The translations under genes were made by a program, and so were the position numbers. The notes below the pieces were generated by a model, which saw only the letters and a list, made by a program, of their open reading frames with translations, was not told the origin of the DNA and did not search any database. A stretch of 20,184 bases of DNA from a virus, in IMG/VR virus record IMGVR_UViG_3300025120_000748, positions 1 to 20,184 of that record; one strand, 5' to 3'. This document shows positions 1,012-19,093 of this stretch, in pieces. How positions within the stretch are numbered: position 1 is the first letter of the stretch; the number at the start of each line of letters is the position of its first letter.

Positions 1012-1203
1012 ATGGACATGCGACCCGCGCAACCGGGAGAAACGATCGCGTACCGAGCCGACGGTGCGACACTTGTCTTTGACTACAACAAAGACGACTT
1101 GGATTGGGGTCACATCAACATGCCGAACGGTACGAGCGGTCGGGAGGCTCCCTTAGTGAGCCTGCTGGTGCGTGGTGGTTGGACGGCTGAGCCGAGTGAC
1201 TAG
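1012..1203 (+). CDS. small hypothetical protein, 63 aa
   Basis: A 63-residue ORF between two HDQKTHG-motif genes. I prefer the ATG at 1012, because the purine-rich AAGAGAGG ends 8 bases upstream; the in-frame GTG at 1006 would leave almost no spacing. The sequence is acidic and soluble-looking (MDMRPAQPGETIAYR at the start, LVSLLVRGGW near the end), with no membrane segment, cysteine cluster or recognised domain. Its stop codon overlaps the likely GTG start of the next ORF, so the two are probably translationally coupled. A role as an accessory or immunity partner of a neighbouring effector domain is possible, but nothing in the sequence shows it. Confidence 0.6.
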   Translation: MDMRPAQPGETIAYRADGATLVFDYNKDDLDWGHINMPNGTSGREAPLVSLLVRGGWTAEPSD

Positions 1204-4200
1204 CGAGGTGATCCGGTTCGCTCCGGGGTTGAAGCCTGTCCTGAAACATCAGCAGGGTGGGCATGATCAGAAGACGCACGGGCAGCGTGCTGGCGCGGGT
1301 GATGATCGTCCCGCGTTGAGGTTCGATAATCCTGATTATGAGCCGTTCGATTTGCCGTCTGGTTGGACTGAGCGTAGTTACTCAAATATTCAGGCCGACG
1401 TGGAGTACAGGCTGAATAGGACCGCTGAGGAACGAGGAACACCGGACCCTGAGTATGCACGGGAGTTGAGCGCCGAGATTGCGTCTTACACATTTGAGTA
1501 TGACGGCGGTAATGGAACAAGGGTAAGTGTTTACCTGATGGATACTGCTAGCAAATCGCCCGACCCCGAGACTATGACCACGATGCTCAAACGCATAGAT
1601 ACATTACAAGAAGACTTTCCCGTCAAAGACCTCGAAGTGAATTTCGCTAACTATCAGTTCAACGCACTAGATTTGCCTGCTGATAACGGTGGTTTAGTTA
1701 TGCAAGGATCAAAAACAATCCACCTGCGACCGGCCTTCTCTCAAAAGTTAGACGGCGTCATGGTGGAGGACTCAGGTAATCCTCTACGCGACCAATTCAT
1801 GCCTAGTAGAAAAACAGTTACTCAGGGTGAGTACGTTCTGGCGCACGAGTACGGTCATGTGAACGATCGGCGTAGCAACTCCCGACGTTTCAGTGATGCG
1901 GGTGATGGTAAAGATTCGAGGGGACTCAGAAACAGTACGCATATTTTCGGCGAACAAATAACGGAAGCGAATGTCGATTTCAAGCGAAGCGAGTATTCCA
2001 ACTCGAACGAAGGGGAACAGTACGCTGAGGCGTTCGCTGAGTACGCGCTAACCGGCGGTACGACCGATATCGGTTATGTGCAGGCGTATGCAGAAAAGTA
2101 TGATTGGGGTAGAAACTTGGAGAAGGCTGTCGATGATTTAGGCGACGACGGCGACAAAGTTATTTTCGTTGACACGTTCACAATGAACCCGCCCCCCTAC
2201 ATCATTGTGCGCCCGAAGCCTGCTGTCGTGAAGCACCTCGGCGTAAAGCATGACCAGAAAACACACGGTCGCGGGTCAAGCGTTCGCGCTCCGTTCTACG
2301 ACGACCTAGAAGACAGTCGTAGGGAAGCAATCGAGTACCTGACAGGGGAACGTCTATTCCCCCCGTCGTACAGCGCCGAGGGCGTCAGGCCACCAACGAT
2401 AACGATGAGCGACTCATTCAAGAACAAGGTCAACGCAGTTCGCAAGAAGGTGAAAGCGTGGGGCGCGGAGCGTGAGAGGCGGGAGTTAGCGGAGATGACA
2501 CCTAGCGAGGTGGCTGAGTTGGCTGCCGTGAATCAAAGCCGGGGCGCGAAGCGGGAGGGGCCGAGAAGCCCGTCATCGTGGGAGGGGCTTGTCCCGTCGA
2601 CGTGGGTGAATCCTTTCGCCGAGCCTGCTATGGCTAAGGCCGCAGATAACGTGTTACGCATCCTGTACCGAGTTTTCAAGGATGTTGTGGATGAGGAAGT
2701 TTGGACGGCGTTGGTGATGGACCCGCGTCCGTTGGATGAGTTGGACGGCCCGCTGGGTGATTTGCTTGATGACATGCTGGATGCGGTCGCGCCGAAGCCT
2801 GCTGTCGTGAAGTTCGCTCCGGGGTTGCGTCCGGTGTTGAAGCATCAGCAAGGCTCGCATGATCAGAAGACGCATGGAACTTGGGCTACTGGCGGCGCTG
2901 GTGGTGACTTTAGTGAGTGGGGGTCGCGTGCTCCGCAGATTCGTGAGATCGCTGAGGTCGCTCCCCCGTTAGCCGAGTTGGGGAGGCTCATGGCTGACCC
3001 GTATGACGCGATCTCGCTGAGAACGGATGACCTTATCGCGGATTTGGTTGAGGAGAGAAAGGACTTGATTGAGTCTTTTCCACCGGATGTCACGATGGTA
3101 AATCCAGAAGACGTAGATGTCTATTCTGACTCCGAGAAAGAGTTTCTTAGACAACAGTCTTTAGATTTCTTTTACGAATACGGTGACGACTTTCCTGATG
3201 CAGGCACAAAATATGATGCTTTACGCGACTACATGAGGCCGACGGCTAATTTTGAGTTTGTGAAGGAAAGTTTGAGTGATGAAGACATGCGACGCCTGCG
3301 AGATCGAGCACAGGGGCTAGTCGAGAGGGAAATGATTGGATCGCTTACGCCGGGGATGAAGGCGGTGTTTGGGATATCCCATCCGGTGACGCTTTCTGAT
3401 GGATCATCAAACGTCATGGAGGTGATGGTTGAGGACGTGACATGGACCGGAGGGCTAGGCAGCGAAAGGCCGACGGTCCAAGTGCTAATGGATGTTTACA
3501 ACAACGACGGATACATTATTGCTTCGGGTGTGCAGAGAGCATTTCGGTTAGGTACAGACGGCAAACTAGAAGTAGAGAATGTTTACCTAAAGATCGGGGA
3601 CGACGCTTACAGGGGTAAAGGGTTCGCGACTGTTTTCAATGAACGTGCCTACGACGCTTACATATCTCAGGGAGTGGAGAGCGTCACGGTCGGTACTGCT
3701 TGGGACGGTGGTTTCGTGTGGGCGAATAAGGGATTCGCGTGGGATGAAGCATCACCACAATCGAACATGCAGACTGCTAGTGATGCGGTGCAGAAAGTTT
3801 TGCGAGACTCACGGTCCTCTGCGTCAACATTAGAGCGTGCCGCAGTCATGTTGGATCAAGTGTCGACACAACAATCGCGATCCGTTCCTGATCTGAGCGA
3901 AATGCCGACACCTATGGAGATCGCGATGCTCGGTTACAGGGATCAAGGCACAGGTGCGTTTGGCAGCATCGAAACAACGACGTGGCCCGGTAAGACAGCC
4001 CTCTACGACGCTAGATGGAAAGGCCGTAAAGAGTTGACACCTGAGAATCTTGGCGGCATCGCTCGCTCGAAGGCAGACATGCGTCGCCCGTCAGAGGTAC
4101 CGGGTCAGAAACCGCTATTCGATAAGAATCCGGTCGTGCAGCAGCCAAGCGCCGGGACCGCAGGGGGAAGGCAAAGCCTTGACGAGGAGGTCATGGCGTT

Positions 4201-4378
4201 GCTTCGACCCATCGGTAAGGCGAAGAAACTGTCGTATTGGGACAAGATCGAGCAGCAGGCAGAGTTCTACGAGAAGTGGATCATGGAGACAGGTCGCGGG
4301 CTTGAGGAAGAAGACCCTGACTCGATGGATGATTTCTTCGCTGCCGCTGTCGAGGCTATGCCGTGGCTCGTTGAGTAG
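1196..4378 (+). CDS. multi-domain polyvalent protein: HDQKTHG motif + Zn peptidase + unknown + GNAT-like domain
   Basis: About 1060 residues; numbering here is from GTG 1196, whose start overlaps the preceding stop. GTG 1208 and GTG 1172 are alternatives. Residues 17-29 carry KHQQGGHDQKTHG. A zinc metallopeptidase follows: HEYGH at 217-221 and YAEAFAEY around 277-284 supplying a plausible third ligand Glu 278. Motif 2 is at 346-358, then about 190 charged residues I do not recognise, then motif 3 at 549-561. Residues ~700-860 look like a GNAT acetyltransferase: YRGKGFA at 805-811 fits the acetyl-CoA loop R-x-x-G-x-A, and GGFVWANKGFAWD at ~838-850 is typical of phage GNAT-like domains. The C-terminus contains PTPMEIAMLGY and a charged helical end. 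The domains are joined by repeated linkers (PKPAVVK twice; FAPGLxPVL twice). Known family behaviour: such domains occur in phage polyvalent proteins delivered with DNA. Inferred role: packaged effector acting early in infection. Confidence 0.78.
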   Translation: MTSEVIRFAPGLKPVLKHQQGGHDQKTHGQRAGAGDDRPALRFDNPDYEPFDLPSGWTERSYSNIQADVEYRLNRTAEERGTPDPEYARELSAEIASYTFEYDGGNGTRVSVYLMDTASKSPDPETMTTMLKRIDTLQEDFPVKDLEVNFANYQFNALDLPADNGGLVMQGSKTIHLRPAFSQKLDGVMVEDSGNPLRDQFMPSRKTVTQGEYVLAHEYGHVNDRRSNSRRFSDAGDGKDSRGLRNSTHIFGEQITEANVDFKRSEYSNSNEGEQYAEAFAEYALTGGTTDIGYVQAYAEKYDWGRNLEKAVDDLGDDGDKVIFVDTFTMNPPPYIIVRPKPAVVKHLGVKHDQKTHGRGSSVRAPFYDDLEDSRREAIEYLTGERLFPPSYSAEGVRPPTITMSDSFKNKVNAVRKKVKAWGAERERRELAEMTPSEVAELAAVNQSRGAKREGPRSPSSWEGLVPSTWVNPFAEPAMAKAADNVLRILYRVFKDVVDEEVWTALVMDPRPLDELDGPLGDLLDDMLDAVAPKPAVVKFAPGLRPVLKHQQGSHDQKTHGTWATGGAGGDFSEWGSRAPQIREIAEVAPPLAELGRLMADPYDAISLRTDDLIADLVEERKDLIESFPPDVTMVNPEDVDVYSDSEKEFLRQQSLDFFYEYGDDFPDAGTKYDALRDYMRPTANFEFVKESLSDEDMRRLRDRAQGLVEREMIGSLTPGMKAVFGISHPVTLSDGSSNVMEVMVEDVTWTGGLGSERPTVQVLMDVYNNDGYIIASGVQRAFRLGTDGKLEVENVYLKIGDDAYRGKGFATVFNERAYDAYISQGVESVTVGTAWDGGFVWANKGFAWDEASPQSNMQTASDAVQKVLRDSRSSASTLERAAVMLDQVSTQQSRSVPDLSEMPTPMEIAMLGYRDQGTGAFGSIETTTWPGKTALYDARWKGRKELTPENLGGIARSKADMRRPSEVPGQKPLFDKNPVVQQPSAGTAGGRQSLDEEVMALLRPIGKAKKLSYWDKIEQQAEFYEKWIMETGRGLEEEDPDSMDDFFAAAVEAMPWLVE
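1244..1282 (+). repeat. HDQKTHG motif, copy 2
   Basis: Encodes KHQQGGHDQKTHG, preceded by FAPGLKPVL. The His residues fall at motif positions 2, 7 and 12. It precedes the zinc peptidase domain. Confidence 0.9.
2213..2233 (+). repeat. 21-bp exact direct repeat, copy A
   Basis: Encodes PKPAVVK directly before motif copy 3. It is identical at the nucleotide level to 2792-2812. Confidence 0.85.
2231..2269 (+). repeat. HDQKTHG motif, copy 3
   Basis: Encodes KHLGVKHDQKTHG, preceded by PKPAVV. It is the most divergent copy in its first half (HLGVK instead of HQQGx) but keeps all three His. It precedes an unrecognised region. Confidence 0.85.
2792..2812 (+). repeat. 21-bp exact direct repeat, copy B
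   Basis: Identical to 2213-2233 and encodes PKPAVVK shortly before motif copy 4. Conservation at silent positions points to recent duplication or recombination at the linker. Confidence 0.85.
2840..2878 (+). repeat. HDQKTHG motif, copy 4
   Basis: Encodes KHQQGSHDQKTHG, preceded by PKPAVVKFAPGLRPVL. That combines the linkers seen separately before copies 2 and 3. It precedes the GNAT-containing part. Confidence 0.9.
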
Positions 4379-4414: not shown

Positions 4415-4444
4415 AGGGACACTACGCGAACTCTGAGGATGCCC

Positions 4445-6871
4445 GTGACTGATACTGCGACCCGACTCACGGGACTCAGCGACGATGATCTTCTCAGCCT
4501 CCACAAGAGGCTTGACGCTAGAGACATTGAGGCACCGGCTGTTGTCGAGGCTCATCACCTCGCCTCGACGGAGATCGCTCGTCGGGGGTTGAGTCACGGT
4601 CACACGGATGATGAATGGTCGAAGGCAGCCATTGAGACGCAGGTAATCGAGGTTGACTCCCCTGATGACATTGAGGCTCCCGCTGGCATGGAGAAGGCGT
4701 GGGGGGCTGCTTTAGCGAACGGCGGGACGGTTTCTGTTTTCTTGACCGTCGACGGGTACGTCTTGAAGGCAGACCCGACGGTGTCCGACGTTCACGTCCC
4801 GACGATCATGGGTGGGAAGAAACGGAAGCCTTTAGAGAAGACGATCCGTGAGGAGGACGGCAAGTTCGTCGTCTACTCGGAGGACATGAGCCGCAAGTTC
4901 GGAACCTACGAGAGTCGCGATGAGGCCGAGGAGCGTCTGCGTCAGATTGAGCGGTTCGCTAAGGCTGAGTCGTACTCGATCCCTGAGAGCGTGCAGTCAG
5001 CCGCTAAGCAGGGGTTGGAGTGGATCGCCGACGGTAAAGCAGGTAGCGGGTTCACGAGCACAGGACGGAACAGGGCTAATCAACTCTCTGCTGGTGGGAG
5101 CGTGTCTCGGGCGACCCTCGTGAAGATGCGGGCGTGGTTCGCACGGCACGCTGTCGATAAGAAAGCGAAAGGGTGGGGCGATAAAAGTAACCCGACGCCG
5201 GGGATGGTCGCGTGGTACGCATGGGGCGGTAATCCGGGTAGGTCGTGGGCTAATGACGTGCTGGGTCGAGTTGAGAAGCGTGCAGCGCCGGAGGCTGTGA
5301 CTGACCTCGGGGTGAACACGGAGAACCGTCAGTACGCGATCGACGAATACATGTACGGGCCGATGAACCCCGAGGAGCCGGGATCGTATTGGGAAGACCT
5401 CGGTGAGGTGTGGGGGGTTGAGGCTGAGACGGCGATGACTACGCGGTGCAGGAATTGTGCTGCGTTCAATCAGACTCCCGAAATGATTGGGCAGATCGAG
5501 GATGCCATTGGTGAGGCTGGGGAGAAAGTCGTCGCGGCAGCGGACATCGGCTATTGCGAGTTATTTGAGTTCAAGTGTGCGGGTGCTCGTGCTTGCGCGG
5601 CGTGGATCGGTGGGGGGCCGATCAAAAAGCATCAGCAGGGCAAGCACGACCAGAAGTCTCATGGGCGTCGCGCTACGGCTTTGGAACCTGCCGTGGCTGA
5701 CTCCATCATTAGTCAGACGATGGAGCAGGGTGGCTTGACGGTGAGCATGGTTGACGGCTCGACGCCTCCGAGCGGTTACATGGTCGCGAGGACTGAGGGT
5801 GTGAAGCCCGCGATCGTGGAAGCCTCTGAGTTCTATGACTCTGAGGCGGGTCCGAAGGCCCTTGGATCGTTCCTGAAAAACAACAGGGAACAGTTGACCG
5901 GGGGTGACTATCTAGGGGTTTGGCATGAGGTAGACTCGGGTAAAGTGTTCTTGGATGTTGCTCAGAACGTGTCAGACCGTGCGACTGCTGAGAGAGTTGG
6001 TCGTGAGCGTAATCAGATAAGTATTTGGGATGTAAGTCAAGGTGAGGAGATTGAGACAGGTGGCACAGGAGAAATCAGTAAATCCGATCCAATCGGTGAG
6101 GCTGCCGGACCTCTCGGAGATGACGGACGAGGAGATCGACGCTTACGCAGCGGAGATTTGGCAGAAGATTCAGAAGTAGAGAAACATCAGCAGGGTAAGC
6201 ACGAGCAGAAAAGTCACGGGCGGGGCACAGCGAGTGTTGACCTACCCCCGATTAGAGACAAAGAGCCGACCGCTGAGAGGTCACCGGAGTCTGTGGAGGC
6301 CGCTAGGCGGCTTCGCGCTGAGGCAGTTGCCGCTGAGCCGGAGTTCACGTCGATGATGGTGGATGTCGTGTCGGAGAACGGTGGTCGCCTCGAACATCTT
6401 GATCATCGCATCAAGACGACGGATTCTTTGGCTCGCAAGATTCAGTTGAAGGCTGATGAACACAACGTCAGCGTCGATGAGGCTAGGGGCTTGATCGGCG
6501 ACAGCGTCCGGTACACGTCAGTCTTCCCTGACGCTGATTACGTCCAAGGCACGCAGTCGATGGTCGATGCTTTGCAGGCAGACGGCTACGACGTGCGGGT
6601 GAAGGACTATTGGTCGATGACTGATGACCCGTACAAGGGAGTCAACATCAAGGCTCAGAAAGACGGCTTGATGATTGAGTTGCAGACGCACACTCCGGGC
6701 AGTCTTGCCGTCAAGGAGGGCAAGATGCACAAACTGTACGAGCAGTACCGTTCGGAGAAAACACCGCAACGGCAGGCGCAGTTGAGGGATGAAATGATGC
6801 AGGCATCGGAGGAGATTCCTCAGCCTCCGGGTGTCGGTCAAGGTGCCTTCGGTGGAGTGGGGGAGGAGTAA
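4445..6871 (+). CDS. multi-domain polyvalent protein ending in RelA/SpoT-type (p)ppGpp synthetase domain
   Basis: About 808 residues; I prefer GTG 4445 because TGAGGA sits 5 bases upstream, while ATG 4439 would touch it. Domains in order: ~141-172, a small phage domain (FGTYESRDEAEERLRQIERF); ~179-280, a phage-associated helical domain (WIADGKAGSGF ... ARHAVDKKAKGW ... AWYAWGGNPGRSWA); 335-384, a cysteine cluster C335-x2-C338 ... C371-x6-C378-x5-C384, probably metal binding; motif KHQQGKHDQKSHG at 395-407; ~408-550, a phage domain of unknown function (GYMVAR ... YLGVWHEVDSGKVFLDVAQN); motif KHQQGKHEQKSHG at 580-592; ~610-790, a RelA/SpoT-like domain. The last has R655-x-K657-x3-S661-x3-K665, D686 in DSVRYT, YKGVNI, and E745-L-Q-T-H, the residues expected for pyrophosphate transfer from ATP to GDP/GTP or another acceptor. 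No HD hydrolase domain is present. The prohead protease starts 3 bases after its stop. Confidence 0.8.
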   Translation: MTDTATRLTGLSDDDLLSLHKRLDARDIEAPAVVEAHHLASTEIARRGLSHGHTDDEWSKAAIETQVIEVDSPDDIEAPAGMEKAWGAALANGGTVSVFLTVDGYVLKADPTVSDVHVPTIMGGKKRKPLEKTIREEDGKFVVYSEDMSRKFGTYESRDEAEERLRQIERFAKAESYSIPESVQSAAKQGLEWIADGKAGSGFTSTGRNRANQLSAGGSVSRATLVKMRAWFARHAVDKKAKGWGDKSNPTPGMVAWYAWGGNPGRSWANDVLGRVEKRAAPEAVTDLGVNTENRQYAIDEYMYGPMNPEEPGSYWEDLGEVWGVEAETAMTTRCRNCAAFNQTPEMIGQIEDAIGEAGEKVVAAADIGYCELFEFKCAGARACAAWIGGGPIKKHQQGKHDQKSHGRRATALEPAVADSIISQTMEQGGLTVSMVDGSTPPSGYMVARTEGVKPAIVEASEFYDSEAGPKALGSFLKNNREQLTGGDYLGVWHEVDSGKVFLDVAQNVSDRATAERVGRERNQISIWDVSQGEEIETGGTGEISKSDPIGEAAGPLGDDGRGDRRLRSGDLAEDSEVEKHQQGKHEQKSHGRGTASVDLPPIRDKEPTAERSPESVEAARRLRAEAVAAEPEFTSMMVDVVSENGGRLEHLDHRIKTTDSLARKIQLKADEHNVSVDEARGLIGDSVRYTSVFPDADYVQGTQSMVDALQADGYDVRVKDYWSMTDDPYKGVNIKAQKDGLMIELQTHTPGSLAVKEGKMHKLYEQYRSEKTPQRQAQLRDEMMQASEEIPQPPGVGQGAFGGVGEE
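5627..5665 (+). repeat. HDQKTHG motif, copy 5
   Basis: Encodes KHQQGKHDQKSHG directly after the cysteine-rich segment and before the GYMV-type phage domain. Confidence 0.9.
6182..6220 (+). repeat. HDQKTHG motif, copy 6
   Basis: Encodes KHQQGKHEQKSHG and precedes the RelA/SpoT-like domain. It is the only copy with Glu in place of Asp after the second His. Confidence 0.9.
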
Positions 6872-14688: not shown

Positions 14689-15092
14689 TGGCGACGATCT
14701 TGGAGGCCGTGGGCGATTATCTTGTTTCGCAGAGTCAGGGAACTCTGGGTACGGACCTGTTTCTCGCGACCATGCCTGAGACGCCGGACGTGATCGTGAC
14801 TGTCTACGAGAACGCCGGTAATAAGCCTGAGATGACTATGGGGAGTTCCCCTTGGGCGATTGACCGTCCTCTGATTCAAGTTATTTGTCGTGGGTCACGT
14901 CAGGATTATCCGACGGCTAGAGATAAGGCAGAGACGATCCGAGCGATTCTTGCTGCCGTGAAGGACACAACAATTTCTACGATAAAGATCATGCGTATCG
15001 AGTCTCAGGGATCGGTCATACCTCTAGGGGAGGATGACAATCAGCGTCCAATGATCTCGATGAATTTCGAGTGCATGGTCAGGTATGACTGA
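14688..15092 (+). CDS. tail terminator protein
   Basis: 134 residues from ATG 14688. The pattern (LEAVGDYLVSQSQGTLGTDLFLATMPETPDVIVTVYENAG ... WAIDRPLIQVICRGSRQDYPTARDKAETIRAIL ... FECMVRYD) matches the minor-capsid/tail-terminator family that caps the tail tube. In most phages of this type the tail tube gene follows directly; here a block of non-structural genes intervenes. Its last 8 bases overlap the Com-like ORF. Confidence 0.76.
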   Translation: MATILEAVGDYLVSQSQGTLGTDLFLATMPETPDVIVTVYENAGNKPEMTMGSSPWAIDRPLIQVICRGSRQDYPTARDKAETIRAILAAVKDTTISTIKIMRIESQGSVIPLGEDDNQRPMISMNFECMVRYD

Positions 15093-15225
15093 CGCTTACG
15101 GGCGCGGCATCATCACAGATGAAGCACCGAGATGTTGGAGATGCAACAGAATCCTTGCAGTAATGGCATCTCGACCGTGGATAATAAAGTGTTCGCGTTG
15201 TAAAGCAGAGAACAGAAGCCAATAG
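15085..15225 (+). CDS. Com-like small zinc-ribbon protein, 46 aa
   Basis: 46 residues from ATG 15085, overlapping the tail terminator by 8 bases. Two CxxC knuckles (C17-W-R-C20 and C36-S-R-C39) lie 15 residues apart in RCWRCNRILAVMASRPWIIKCSRCKAENR. This is the layout of the Mu Com family of zinc-binding translational regulators (CxxCxKLL ... IKCPRCKxxN). In phage Mu, Com binds mRNA to permit translation of mom; no modification gene is visible here, so the target is unknown. The ribosome binding site is weak, suggesting translational coupling. Confidence 0.7.
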   Translation: MTDAYGRGIITDEAPRCWRCNRILAVMASRPWIIKCSRCKAENRSQ

Positions 15226-16920: not shown

Positions 16921-17147
16921 CATCCGAGGAGCACGCTGACGCCGTAGAAGCCACCCTAGAGGCTCTAAGGGGCAGAATTTTGGGCGTTGGTGCTCAGCAA
17001 TATGACGACGGCTCAGGTATTCAGCGGTTCGAGCGGAAGCCGCTAGAGGCTATCGTCACGGACGCTGTCGAGGAGATAGACGACCTGATTGTCTACCTTT
17101 GTCAGTTGCGTATTCGATTGACCGAAGGGCCGTTGTCACATCTCTGA
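16917..17147 (+). CDS. small MazG-like protein, 76 aa
   Basis: 76 residues; GTG 16917 overlaps the phosphoesterase stop, and the longer upstream frame is only a shadow. The core GRILGVGAQQYDDGSGIQRFERKPLEAIVTDAVEEIDDLIVYLCQLRIRL has a paired-acid EEIDD motif in a helix, as in MazG-like nucleotide pyrophosphatase proteins. It is short for an enzyme and the resemblance is a pattern guess. It is the last gene before the structured leader at 17150-17285. Confidence 0.6.
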   Translation: MTSEEHADAVEATLEALRGRILGVGAQQYDDGSGIQRFERKPLEAIVTDAVEEIDDLIVYLCQLRIRLTEGPLSHL

Positions 17148-17184
17148 TCTTTCTCAGGGTTTCGTGTTTTTTCCTTTAGACTGG

Positions 17185-17231
17185 ACGAAGTAGTTCCGTA
17201 CTCCAAGTGAGTCCGTCCGTCACTACTTCGT
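17185..17231 (+). promoter_or_regulatory. 10-bp perfect inverted repeat in leader
   Basis: ACGAAGTAGT (17185-17194) and ACTACTTCGT (17222-17231) are perfect complements with a 27-base loop; inside the loop ACTC and GAGT can also pair. It sits in the 138-base gap between the MazG-like gene and the first tail gene. It could be an RNA structure or a protein binding site. I found no convincing -35/-10 pair; a T-run at 17168-17173 lies upstream. Confidence 0.55.
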
Positions 17232-17243
17232 GACCCCGTGTGG

Positions 17244-17279
17244 TCCCTGCGGCGGTGCGGATTCGCGCTGCCACAGGGA
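17244..17279 (+). promoter_or_regulatory. hairpin covering the ribosome binding site of the next gene
   Basis: TCCCTG (17244-17249) pairs with CAGGGA (17274-17279). Inside, GGCGG pairs with CTGCC (one G-U) and GCG with CGC around a GATT loop. The 3' arm contains AGGGA, most of the AGGGAGG Shine-Dalgarno (17275-17281) for GTG 17286. Folding should hide it. Confidence 0.65.
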
Positions 17280-17285
17280 GGTCTA

Positions 17286-17498
17286 GTGCCGTACAAGGTA
17301 CTCAATGGTTTGTCCTATCCACCGGACAACCGTGCCGAGGTGGGGGAAATCGTTGATGACCTCCCCTCTAAGTCAATCAAGTGGCTCCTGAAAAAGGGGC
17401 ACATCGAGGAAGTAGCGGGTGGCGCTAAGTCATCGGGGAAGCCTGCATCTACTCATCCTTCATTCCAAAAGCCCAAGTCTGAGGAAGGTGACGAGTAA
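17286..17498 (+). CDS. small conserved phage protein, 70 aa
   Basis: 70 residues from GTG 17286, with AGGGAGG 4 bases upstream inside a hairpin arm. MPYKVLNGLSYPPDNRAEVGEIVDDLPSKSIKWLLKKGHIEEV is a pattern I know from many actinophage tail regions. It looks like a small beta/helix protein with a flexible Ser/Lys/Pro tail; function unknown. Its stop shares a base with the ATG of the first tail tube gene, so whatever opens the upstream hairpin may also raise tail tube translation. Confidence 0.65.
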   Translation: MPYKVLNGLSYPPDNRAEVGEIVDDLPSKSIKWLLKKGHIEEVAGGAKSSGKPASTHPSFQKPKSEEGDE

Positions 17499-18220
17499 TG
17501 GCTTTTATTCATGGCAAGGGAACTTCTGTTCTTTACAACGGGAGTAATCTTTCAGCGTTTTTCAATGACGCCTCGATGTCGCAGGATGTCGAGACCGCTG
17601 AGACGACTGCCTTCGGTGATAGTGCTAAGACGTACATCACGGGCCTGAAAGACGGGACGATGAGCCTGTCGGGCATGTTCGATGGTGCTGCTGGCGCAGT
17701 TGACGTTGTCTTGACATCTACTTTGGGCGCTACTGCTGCTGACGTCGCGACAGTTGTGCCTTCTGGACTGTCTTCCGCTGGCGTTTCTACCTTTAGTGCT
17801 GAGGTGCGCGAAACCTCTTACGAGATTTCAAGCCCTGTCAGCGATGTTGTAGCCGCCAACGCTGAGGTTCAGGCGACTGGCGGTATCGACCGTGGTGAGT
17901 TGTTGATCGGCGCGTCCACAGTTTCATCGGCGCAGAACACCACGGCAATCGACAATGGCTCCTCCACCAGCGACGGTGGAGTTGGTTATGTGCATGTCAC
18001 GGCTAACACCCGTGATGGTGCCAGCACCTTCAAGGTGCAGGACAGCGCAGATAACCTGACGTTCGCTGATCTCGTAGCATTTACGAGCGTGGCGGCAACA
18101 ACAACAACCGGCGAGAGAGTCGCCGTAACAGGCACGGTCGACAGGTACGTCCGCGCCCAAGCAACCCCCGGAGGTTCCTCTGGGTCACTCACATACACAA
18201 TGGCGTTTGCCCGGAGTTAG
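17498..18220 (+). CDS. tail tube protein, copy 1, with extra C-terminal domain
   Basis: 240 residues from ATG 17498, overlapping the preceding stop by one base. Residues 1-~150 follow the major tail protein pattern (MAFIHGKGTSVLYNGSNLSAFFNDASMSQDVETAETTAFGDSAKTYITGLKDGTMSLSGMFDG) and are clearly paralogous to the next gene. About 90 further residues (STVSSAQNTTAIDNGSS ... VHVTANTRDGASTFKVQDSADNLTFADLV ... RYVRAQATPGGSSGSLTYTMAFARS) form a second, beta-rich domain absent from copy 2, likely displayed on the tail surface. Confidence 0.82.
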   Translation: MAFIHGKGTSVLYNGSNLSAFFNDASMSQDVETAETTAFGDSAKTYITGLKDGTMSLSGMFDGAAGAVDVVLTSTLGATAADVATVVPSGLSSAGVSTFSAEVRETSYEISSPVSDVVAANAEVQATGGIDRGELLIGASTVSSAQNTTAIDNGSSTSDGGVGYVHVTANTRDGASTFKVQDSADNLTFADLVAFTSVAATTTTGERVAVTGTVDRYVRAQATPGGSSGSLTYTMAFARS

Positions 18221-18231
18221 GAGAAGTCGAA

Positions 18232-18660
18232 ATGGCTTTCATTCATGGTAAGAGTTCCCTTTTCAAGGTGGACAATGCAAGTGGGTCGCTGGTTGACCTT
18301 TCAGCGTTCTGTGAGGACGTTTCTTTGTCCCGAGACATCGAGACTGCTGAGGTCACCACGTTCGGTGACAGCGCGAAGGAATACATCACGGGTCTGACAG
18401 ACGCGACGATCAGCATCAGCGGCAAGTTCGATGCTAATGGTGCGTCCTCGGTTGACTCGGTTCTTTCGGGCATCCTCGGTCAGGCTGCGACGGTGACATA
18501 CAACTACCGTCCGAACAGCGCCGCTATCGCTGCGACTAACCCTGAGTATCAGGGTGAGGCGATCGTGACCTCGTATGAGGTTTCGGGCAGCGTTGGCGAT
18601 GCCGTTACGTTCTCGGCTGAGTTGCAGTGCTCCGGGGCTATCACTCGCGCTACTTCCTGA
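18232..18660 (+). CDS. tail tube protein, copy 2
   Basis: 142 residues from ATG 18232, with TTAGGAGA upstream. It shares MAFIHGK, DxETAExTxFGDSAKxYITGL, ISISGKFD and the closing ExxVTSYEVSGSVGDAVTFSAELQxSGAI with copy 1, but lacks the extra C-terminal domain. It is the length of a minimal tail tube subunit. The two may co-assemble or be used at different positions in the tail. A CTAGG/CCTAG hairpin follows its stop. Confidence 0.82.
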   Translation: MAFIHGKSSLFKVDNASGSLVDLSAFCEDVSLSRDIETAEVTTFGDSAKEYITGLTDATISISGKFDANGASSVDSVLSGILGQAATVTYNYRPNSAAIAATNPEYQGEAIVTSYEVSGSVGDAVTFSAELQCSGAITRATS

Positions 18661-18675: not shown

Positions 18676-18721
18676 ACAGTCCTAATCGTGGCCCCCTGTG
18701 GCCCCTACGGAAAGAGTGAGT

Positions 18722-19093
18722 ATGTCTTTACGCGACAAGATCCTTGCAGCAGAGGACATCGAGTCTGAGATGTTGGAAGTCCCTGAGTGGGATTGCACCG
18801 TCGAGATTCGTGGCATGAACGGCGCTGACCGTTCACGCATCTTGGAATCTGCCGCAGCGTCAGACGACGGCAAGATCAGTATCGGCAACATGTATGTCGA
18901 GACTGTGATTGCTAGCACCTACGATCCTGAAACAGGTGAACGTATCTTCACGAACGCTGACCGTGACGTGTTGATGAGCAAGTCCGCTGCCGCGATTGAC
19001 AAGATCGCGACTGTCGGGATGCGCTTGTCGGCGATGGACACGAAGGCGACTGATGATGCTAAGGCCACGTTTCCTGAAACGACCACATCGTAG
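18722..19093 (+). CDS. tail assembly chaperone, short (pre-frameshift) product
   Basis: 123 residues from ATG 18722 (GAAAGAG 5 bases upstream; GTG 18698 and 18716 are less likely). MSLRDKILAAEDIESEMLEVPEWDCTVEIRGMNGADRSRILESAA ... DDGKISIGNMYVETVIASTYDPETGERIFTNADRDVL matches the gpG/XkdN-like chaperones that bind the tape measure protein during tail assembly. It ends at TAG 19091. The following frame continues with a typical second chaperone part, so this is the short form of a frameshifted pair. Confidence 0.8.
   Translation: MSLRDKILAAEDIESEMLEVPEWDCTVEIRGMNGADRSRILESAAASDDGKISIGNMYVETVIASTYDPETGERIFTNADRDVLMSKSAAAIDKIATVGMRLSAMDTKATDDAKATFPETTTS

Follow-up and report, generated by a model that had tools for sequence, protein, structure and literature searches.

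Com is a zinc-finger protein of phage Mu that activates the translation of mom (PMC6483171). The SELEX motif of Com is NGAGNNCC(N)2-3GAGNNCCNN, with the layout GAGNNCC(N)2-3GAGNNCC, and the selected hairpin has a variable stem of 3-4 nt that is always closed by a C-G pair; Com binds a short hairpin adjoining the structure in which the mom start is hidden (PMC6483171). In the open-licence literature, we found no Com target besides mom and no phage leader of the kind described below.

The stretch of DNA analysed here, hereafter the window, is a 20,184-base IMG/VR virus record that encodes capsid, connector and tail genes. The leader under study is located between a short ORF that ends at 17147 and a 70-residue gene (phrog_7924; 17286..17498, + strand), the first of the tail operon. 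Further downstream on the same strand are two major tail protein genes, copy 1 (phrog_9522) at 17498..18220 and copy 2 (phrog_10528; Pfam Phage_tail_2) at 18232..18660, and the tail assembly chaperone gene (phrog_344, E 7e-24) at 18722..19093. The adjacent tail protein genes (17498-18660) are diverged, with about 47% identity over their shared part, and both are present in most relatives.

The original prediction for this leader was that a 10-bp perfect inverted repeat, followed by a long hairpin holding most of the Shine-Dalgarno sequence (SD), forms a translational switch or thermosensor-like element at a GTG start coupled to tail tube copy 1. Judged against relatives, GTG 17286 is the correct start; the SD, AGGGAGG, is located at 17275..17281 (+ strand), and the stop codon of the small gene overlaps the tail-tube start, ATG 17498 (TAATG). 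The inverted repeat is present (ACGAAGTAGT at 17185-17194 and ACTACTTCGT at 17222-17231, inside 17-nt arms), as is the long hairpin, which extends from TCCCTG at 17244 as far as CAGGGA, whose last base is 17279, and contains, in its 3′ arm, the AGGGA of AGGGAGG just 5′ of the GTG. The predicted fold of 17140-17300 has an energy of -60.4 kcal/mol, which none of 200 dinucleotide shuffles equalled (z -3.57), and the segment 17190-17300 by itself is less extreme (z -1.68; 11 of 200 shuffles equally good). Better conserved than any of these earlier-noted features are two short hairpins at 17197-17213 and 17229-17246, with a third at 18687-18704.

Relatives with the same tail genes were gathered by protein, DNA-pattern and alignment searches of viral records, and nine stretches of named phages were added. 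The 228 loci comprised 202 with the small gene, which gave 80 distinct 100-nt leaders; two leaders that were too short (L039 and L047) and phage Ottawa, for which no start was found, were left out before counting. Two hairpins of the same design are located upstream of the small tail gene in 71 of the 80 leaders, while the same tandem rule was satisfied by 7 of 7100 shuffled leaders. The design consists of (C/T/A)GU, a stem of 3-4 bp, a loop of 5-7 nt with a pyrimidine first and GU last, the second stem strand and, nearly always, a C. The spacing between the hairpins is 25-35 nt, and the second begins 52-69 nt before the start codon. The nine leaders without the tandem motif are L041, L075, L076, L077, L079, L081, L202, L203 and L211. 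In the window, the first hairpin, HP1 (CGU-ACUC-CAAGU-GAGU-C), is located at 17197..17213 and the second, HP2 (CGU-GACC-CCGUGU-GGUC-C, exact sequence GUGNNCCNNNGUGNNCC), at 17229..17246, both on the + strand; we propose them as Com-type sites 1 and 2.

The stems of these hairpins vary widely among relatives, with pairs such as GTC/GAC, GAC/GTC, ACCC/GGGT, GCC/GGC, GCG/CGC, ATCC/GGAT, GATC/GATC, GGCC/GGCC and GTTC/GAAC, among others. Covariation across relatives was the check suggested with the original prediction, and it showed that pairing in the HP1 and HP2 stems is preserved by compensatory changes. In a 47-sequence alignment, double changes occurred in all six inner pairs of HP1 and HP2, which were paired in 89.4% of cases; they amounted to 39 cells, compared with 9.8 in shuffles (0 of 500 as high). 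The covariation score was 0.476 against 0.187 when shuffled (0 of 500) and at most 0.186 in slid versions of the motif. The tandem motif is also specific to this position. A pattern derived from one group matched 61 stretches. The small gene follows in 59 of them; of the other two, L137 is this same leader, located at the end of a contig, and L142 sits elsewhere. Of the 8 stretches matched by a second pattern, 6 are leaders of this type and the other 2 are simple repeats. When the strict tandem rule was applied to all loci, 171 of 174 matches fell in such leaders and the remaining 3 were in simple repeats of L088 and L089; these counts are redundant because many loci overlap. A covariance model, R1, detected the element in all 20 of the records chosen. 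We also considered pairing of the 3′ half of HP2 to 16S rRNA, which was dropped by reasoning since the HP1 variants fail to fit. The existence of a translational leader that is conserved and co-varies is well supported, and we regard it as very probable.

The leader motif, GUG-N1-2-C(C/U)-N2-3-GUG-N1-2-C, was derived before it was compared with the published Com site. It has the same layout with U in place of A in both halves (PMC6483171), and HP2 and the third hairpin of the window fit GUGNNCC(N)3GUGNNCC exactly. By the published rule these are therefore not Com sites, as GUG stands in place of GAG. Nevertheless, the likeness to the Mu site extends to a variable stem of 3-4 bp with a C-G closing pair, a loop of 5-6 nt of the form C(N)2-3G-x, a GxG before and after, and two motif halves. 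Among 142 HP1 and HP2 sites, the loop part C[CU]N2-3GUG was found in 127, and the 15 exceptions are closed by G-C. Additionally, as in Mu, the site adjoins a structure that would hide the start: HP2 abuts a predicted hairpin, P3, that carries AGGGA, and we consider P3 the counterpart of the Mu translation inhibition structure. The arrangement differs from that of Mu in having two full tandem hairpins and a third before a second gene, and in its targets, which would be the phrog_7924, major tail protein and chaperone genes instead of mom.

The operators of the MS2 and PP7 coat proteins are short bulged hairpins near a ribosome binding site in a structural-protein context, and the MS2 and PP7 coat proteins repress the replicase. 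Short bulged hairpins just 5′ of SDs resemble such operators, the hairpins here are consistently placed before tail genes, and 8 of 8 motif-bearing records encode members of the small, tail and chaperone families. The hairpins could therefore be operators for another protein; for example, the tail tube, the small protein or the chaperone could bind and repress its own message. The leader shares with the MS2 and PP7 operators the short hairpin near the ribosome binding site and the structural-protein context, but its loop and bulge sequences differ, and its hairpins are in tandem with a large alternative fold. Autoregulation of this kind appears unlikely to us: the motif layout matches Com sites in detail, a Com-like gene is present, and the tail proteins also occur in phages without the motif.

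A small CCCC zinc finger is encoded by the phage, as it is in Mu. The Com-like protein of the window (46 aa, RCWRCN...IKCSRCK; 15085..15225, + strand), our candidate trans-acting factor, is encoded about 2 kb upstream of the leader, within the head-tail module; the gene is thus set apart from its putative target, unlike com of Mu. A zinc finger of 46-59 residues with the pattern PRCWRCNR..RPW.I.C.RCKAEN was found in 8 of 8 long motif-bearing records as well as in the window. All 11 Com-like proteins matched phrog_6417, annotated as translational regulator, and an hhalign comparison with Mu Com gave a probability of 91.7 and an E value of 7.9e-7; the proteins fall below the Pfam Com cut-off, with 4 of 11 matching PF10122 at E up to 0.1.

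The Com-like gene and the motif occur together. In a second set of 30 motif-bearing records, which shares one record (G003) with the set of eight long ones, 24 carried the gene. It was found in 0 of 19 records without the motif, of which 5 (L187, L190, L198, L209 and L215) stop just short of the tail genes and are thus uninformative. Judging by the distances in sister records, the six motif-bearing misses seem to break off ahead of where com would be expected. Among the fetched loci, the gene accompanied all 14 motif-bearing leaders that had 2.5 kb or more of upstream sequence, 37 of the 54 that had 1.5 kb or more, and 0 of 4 motif-free ones. This co-occurrence may be mere co-inheritance within one module. 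The Arthrobacter phages Salgado and Ottawa also encode a Com-like protein, which has CRxCG..KT instead of CWRCN..KA; no such hairpin was found in their tail leaders, and a search for generalised G-x hairpins, with other bases allowed, gave no site before the tail gene.

Pairing outside the short hairpins was analysed with a strand-swap test, in which the leaders of 26 lineage representatives were divided into segments and pairing between the strands of one leader was compared with pairing between strands exchanged among lineages; the p values, from about 35 duplex tests, are nominal. Own strands paired better in P1, which joins the segment just after HP1 to the segment after HP2 (z -5.4, p 0.0002), in P2, which surrounds HP2 (z -3.4, p 0.0006), and in P3 (z -5.6, p 0.0002). 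S1, which separates HP1 from HP2, likewise paired better with the SD of its own leader (z -4.5, p 0.0002), as did, less strongly, the HP2 arm (z -2.15, p 0.018); control pairings in the 26 lineages showed no such advantage, and a shuffled-strand control was included. The 10-bp outer repeat of the original prediction gained no support across lineages (pre-HP1 with S1, z -1.4, p 0.08). RNAalifold gave independent predictions of both P1 and P2 in the near group of relatives. In the same group, covariation in P3 did not rise above shuffles, and a GUAGU/ACUAC pseudoknot of this group was unsupported across lineages.

In the window (+ strand), the 5′ strand of P1 is UCCG (17212..17215, partner 17258-17261) and that of P2 is CCGUC (17217..17221, partner 17251-17255). 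In several relatives the latter is an anti-SD; since the two overlap, P2 and SD pairing are mutually exclusive. P3 (17244..17279) is flush with HP2 and holds the AGGGA of the SD in its 3′ arm. In the minimum free energy fold of 17229-17300, GACC of the HP2 5′ arm (17232..17235) takes GGUC (17280-17283) as an alternative partner and, with UCCCUG:CAGGGA, leaves the SD fully paired; HP2 formation would, in this model, undo part of that pairing. The SD-holding hairpin that had been predicted thus exists in the window, but its exact form is particular to its lineage. The counterpart in many relatives stops right before the SD, which is paired by other segments, and the sequences that pair with the SD are unrelated, as in L064, L172, L026, L208 and L200.

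The SD is predicted to be paired only a little more than in shuffled leaders. Its mean unpaired probability in the free ensemble was 0.247, compared with 0.301 in shuffled leaders (0 of 40 sets as low), and only 3 of 26 leaders fell individually in the lowest tenth. When P1-P2 was forced, the SD became more exposed in 15 representatives, by more than 0.05, and less exposed in 3, and two of the 26 were unforceable; in the window, forced P1-P2 costs 7.5 kcal/mol and SD exposure barely moves, from 0.20 to 0.22. Of the 26 lineages, 8 have an S1:SD duplex weaker than -6 kcal/mol.

As for the switch or thermosensor reading of the original prediction, compensatory changes and co-variation among lineages favour a translational switch. 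The location of the SD in a hairpin would suit an RNA thermometer, but the predicted P3 duplex, of about -26 kcal/mol, is probably too stable to melt near growth temperature, and the conserved loop and flank nucleotides would require another reason; we consider a thermometer extremely improbable. These nucleotides of the short hairpins are the best kept, and this points to a factor that recognises them rather than to melting.

In SD-sequestering riboswitch platforms, a strand of the closing stem also serves as the anti-SD. The leader resembles them in this respect, and its nested co-varying helices with an alternative SD-pairing fold would fit a metabolite riboswitch, with HP1, P1, P2 and HP2 as the aptamer and the SD pairing as the expression platform. 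Such a riboswitch is nevertheless improbable: unlike these platforms, the leader matches no Rfam family, and lone hairpin copies elsewhere, such as the single 17-nt copy that stands alone before another gene, favour a protein ligand. With Rfam 15 at the gathering score, the window had 0 matches, and at E up to 10 the leader had only an irrelevant miRNA match on the opposite strand (E 7.4). The element is also restricted to one phage tail position, and one tandem form had no match in cellular genomes.

When the 34 nt before HP1 were searched, every one of the 26 lineages had a TANNNT box, at a distance of 13-24 nt from HP1; in the window, the -10-like box TAGACT is located at 17177..17182 (+ strand), 20 nt before HP1. 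A terminator-like hairpin with a T-rich tail (17142..17172, + strand; one of 4 found, with 1.7 expected) lies just upstream of the leader, and in several relatives terminator-like hairpins occupy the equivalent place ahead of the TANNNT box. Given this box and the preceding hairpins, the leader is probably the extreme 5′ end of the tail transcript, for which we infer a start just upstream of HP1. The closeness of HP1 to the predicted promoter, with a terminator-like hairpin ahead of it, would also be consistent with an antitermination or RNA-stability leader of the put or nut type, in which the SD pairing is incidental. To this we assign a small probability only, given that the S1:SD pairing co-varies and that a third hairpin lies within the operon, shortly before an SD.

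This third hairpin came to light through weak additional matches of model R1 about 1.5 kb downstream in several records, which are single hairpins of the same design. In the window, HP3 (CGU-GGCC-CCCUGU-GGCC-C; 18687..18704, + strand) is located just before the chaperone SD. The longest ORF of the chaperone begins within HP3, at GTG 18698, and relatives place the true start at ATG 18722. HP3 was found before the chaperone gene in 26 of 84 intergenic regions, 4 of 88 having been left out because no start was assigned, compared with 2 of 4200 shuffles. It begins 29-38 nt before the chaperone start codon, with stems GGCC/GGCC, GGGC/GCCC, GCC/GGC, GGC/GCC and GAC/GTC. A hairpin of the form CGT-GTC-CYTNCGT-GAC-C lies over the chaperone GTG start in relatives of the L042 type (31 of 84 intergenic regions, all without HP3). 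It has 7-nt loops and we did not count it as a site; it may be a shifted site or may merely reflect the conserved MSLRD codons.

The strict rule matched the + strand of the window at 2167, 17197, 17229 and 18687 and the other strand nowhere, with 0.33 matches expected per strand. The eight long records, in 20 pieces, had 23 strict matches against about 3.4 expected, namely 15 tandem members, 3 copies of HP3, 1 new site (L241:3473) and 4 elsewhere. All loci together had 136 distinct single sites: 91 tandem members, 28 right before an SD and start (19 HP3, 8 leader members whose partner failed the strict rule, and 1 other) and 17 others. The new site, L241:3473-3505, is a hairpin of the same design (GAC-CGTAGT-GTC) directly 5′ of the SD of a small gene (MAYKVLKPIPKG...) in the head-tail module of that relative; by eye, the small protein resembles the product of the small tail-operon gene.

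Control of the leader by the Com-like protein, that is, a Com-type translational switch on the tail genes, is in our judgement the best explanation and a probable one on the sequence data. Comparison among relatives shows the hairpins with their covariation and placement, the alternative pairings, and the Com-like gene alongside them. We infer that the protein binds the hairpins and, by analogy with Mu, that it activates rather than represses. The segment would be the 5′ leader of the tail operon, transcribed from its own promoter at about 17177-17182. In the unbound leader, the SD of the first tail gene would be paired, in this phage with P3 and the HP2 5′ arm and in others with the segment between HP1 and HP2. 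HP1 and HP2 would be the binding sites for the phage's own Com-like zinc finger, and binding at both would stabilise the hairpins and the P1-P2 arm that carries HP2. The stabilised hairpins would pull away the SD-hiding strands so that the small gene is translated, and translation of the tail tube would be switched on by coupling. HP3 would bring the chaperone into the same regulated set, and the switch may time tail production.

On balance, we also favour a broader proposal for a wide group of uncultured phages that are probably actinobacterial. Under this proposal, the Com-like protein, encoded in the head-tail module, would time the start of tail-tube synthesis by opening a bistable, co-varying leader, a second site would set the chaperone dose, and the RNA code would have changed from GAG to GUG. 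Com-like control of the leader predicts this altered recognition code, GUG for GAG. If it is true, Com-type zinc fingers control more than DNA modification, Com-like zinc fingers outside Mu-like phages gain a target, and a structured, co-varying RNA switch governs a tail operon.

The nearest named phages are mostly Arthrobacter phages, with tail-protein identities of 31-47%, which sets this group apart from Mu-like phages. The leader was absent from all nine named phage stretches examined, and no homologous leader was recovered from named phages by blastn, whether the query was the leader region or a 45-nt core. The tail-protein alignment and the tandem pattern had zero matches in cellular genomes, and because of this we name no prophage host. 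Leaders of Arthrobacter and Microbacterium phages (L075, L076, L077 and L078) have a common CGGCGTGTCG box upstream of the tail genes, and in Salgado-type leaders a CCTCTAGG/CCTAGAGG pairing reaches into the SD. In the window, the peptide KHQQGxHDQK(T/S)HG is repeated several times in two adjacent long proteins, encoded at 1172-4378 and 4439-6871.
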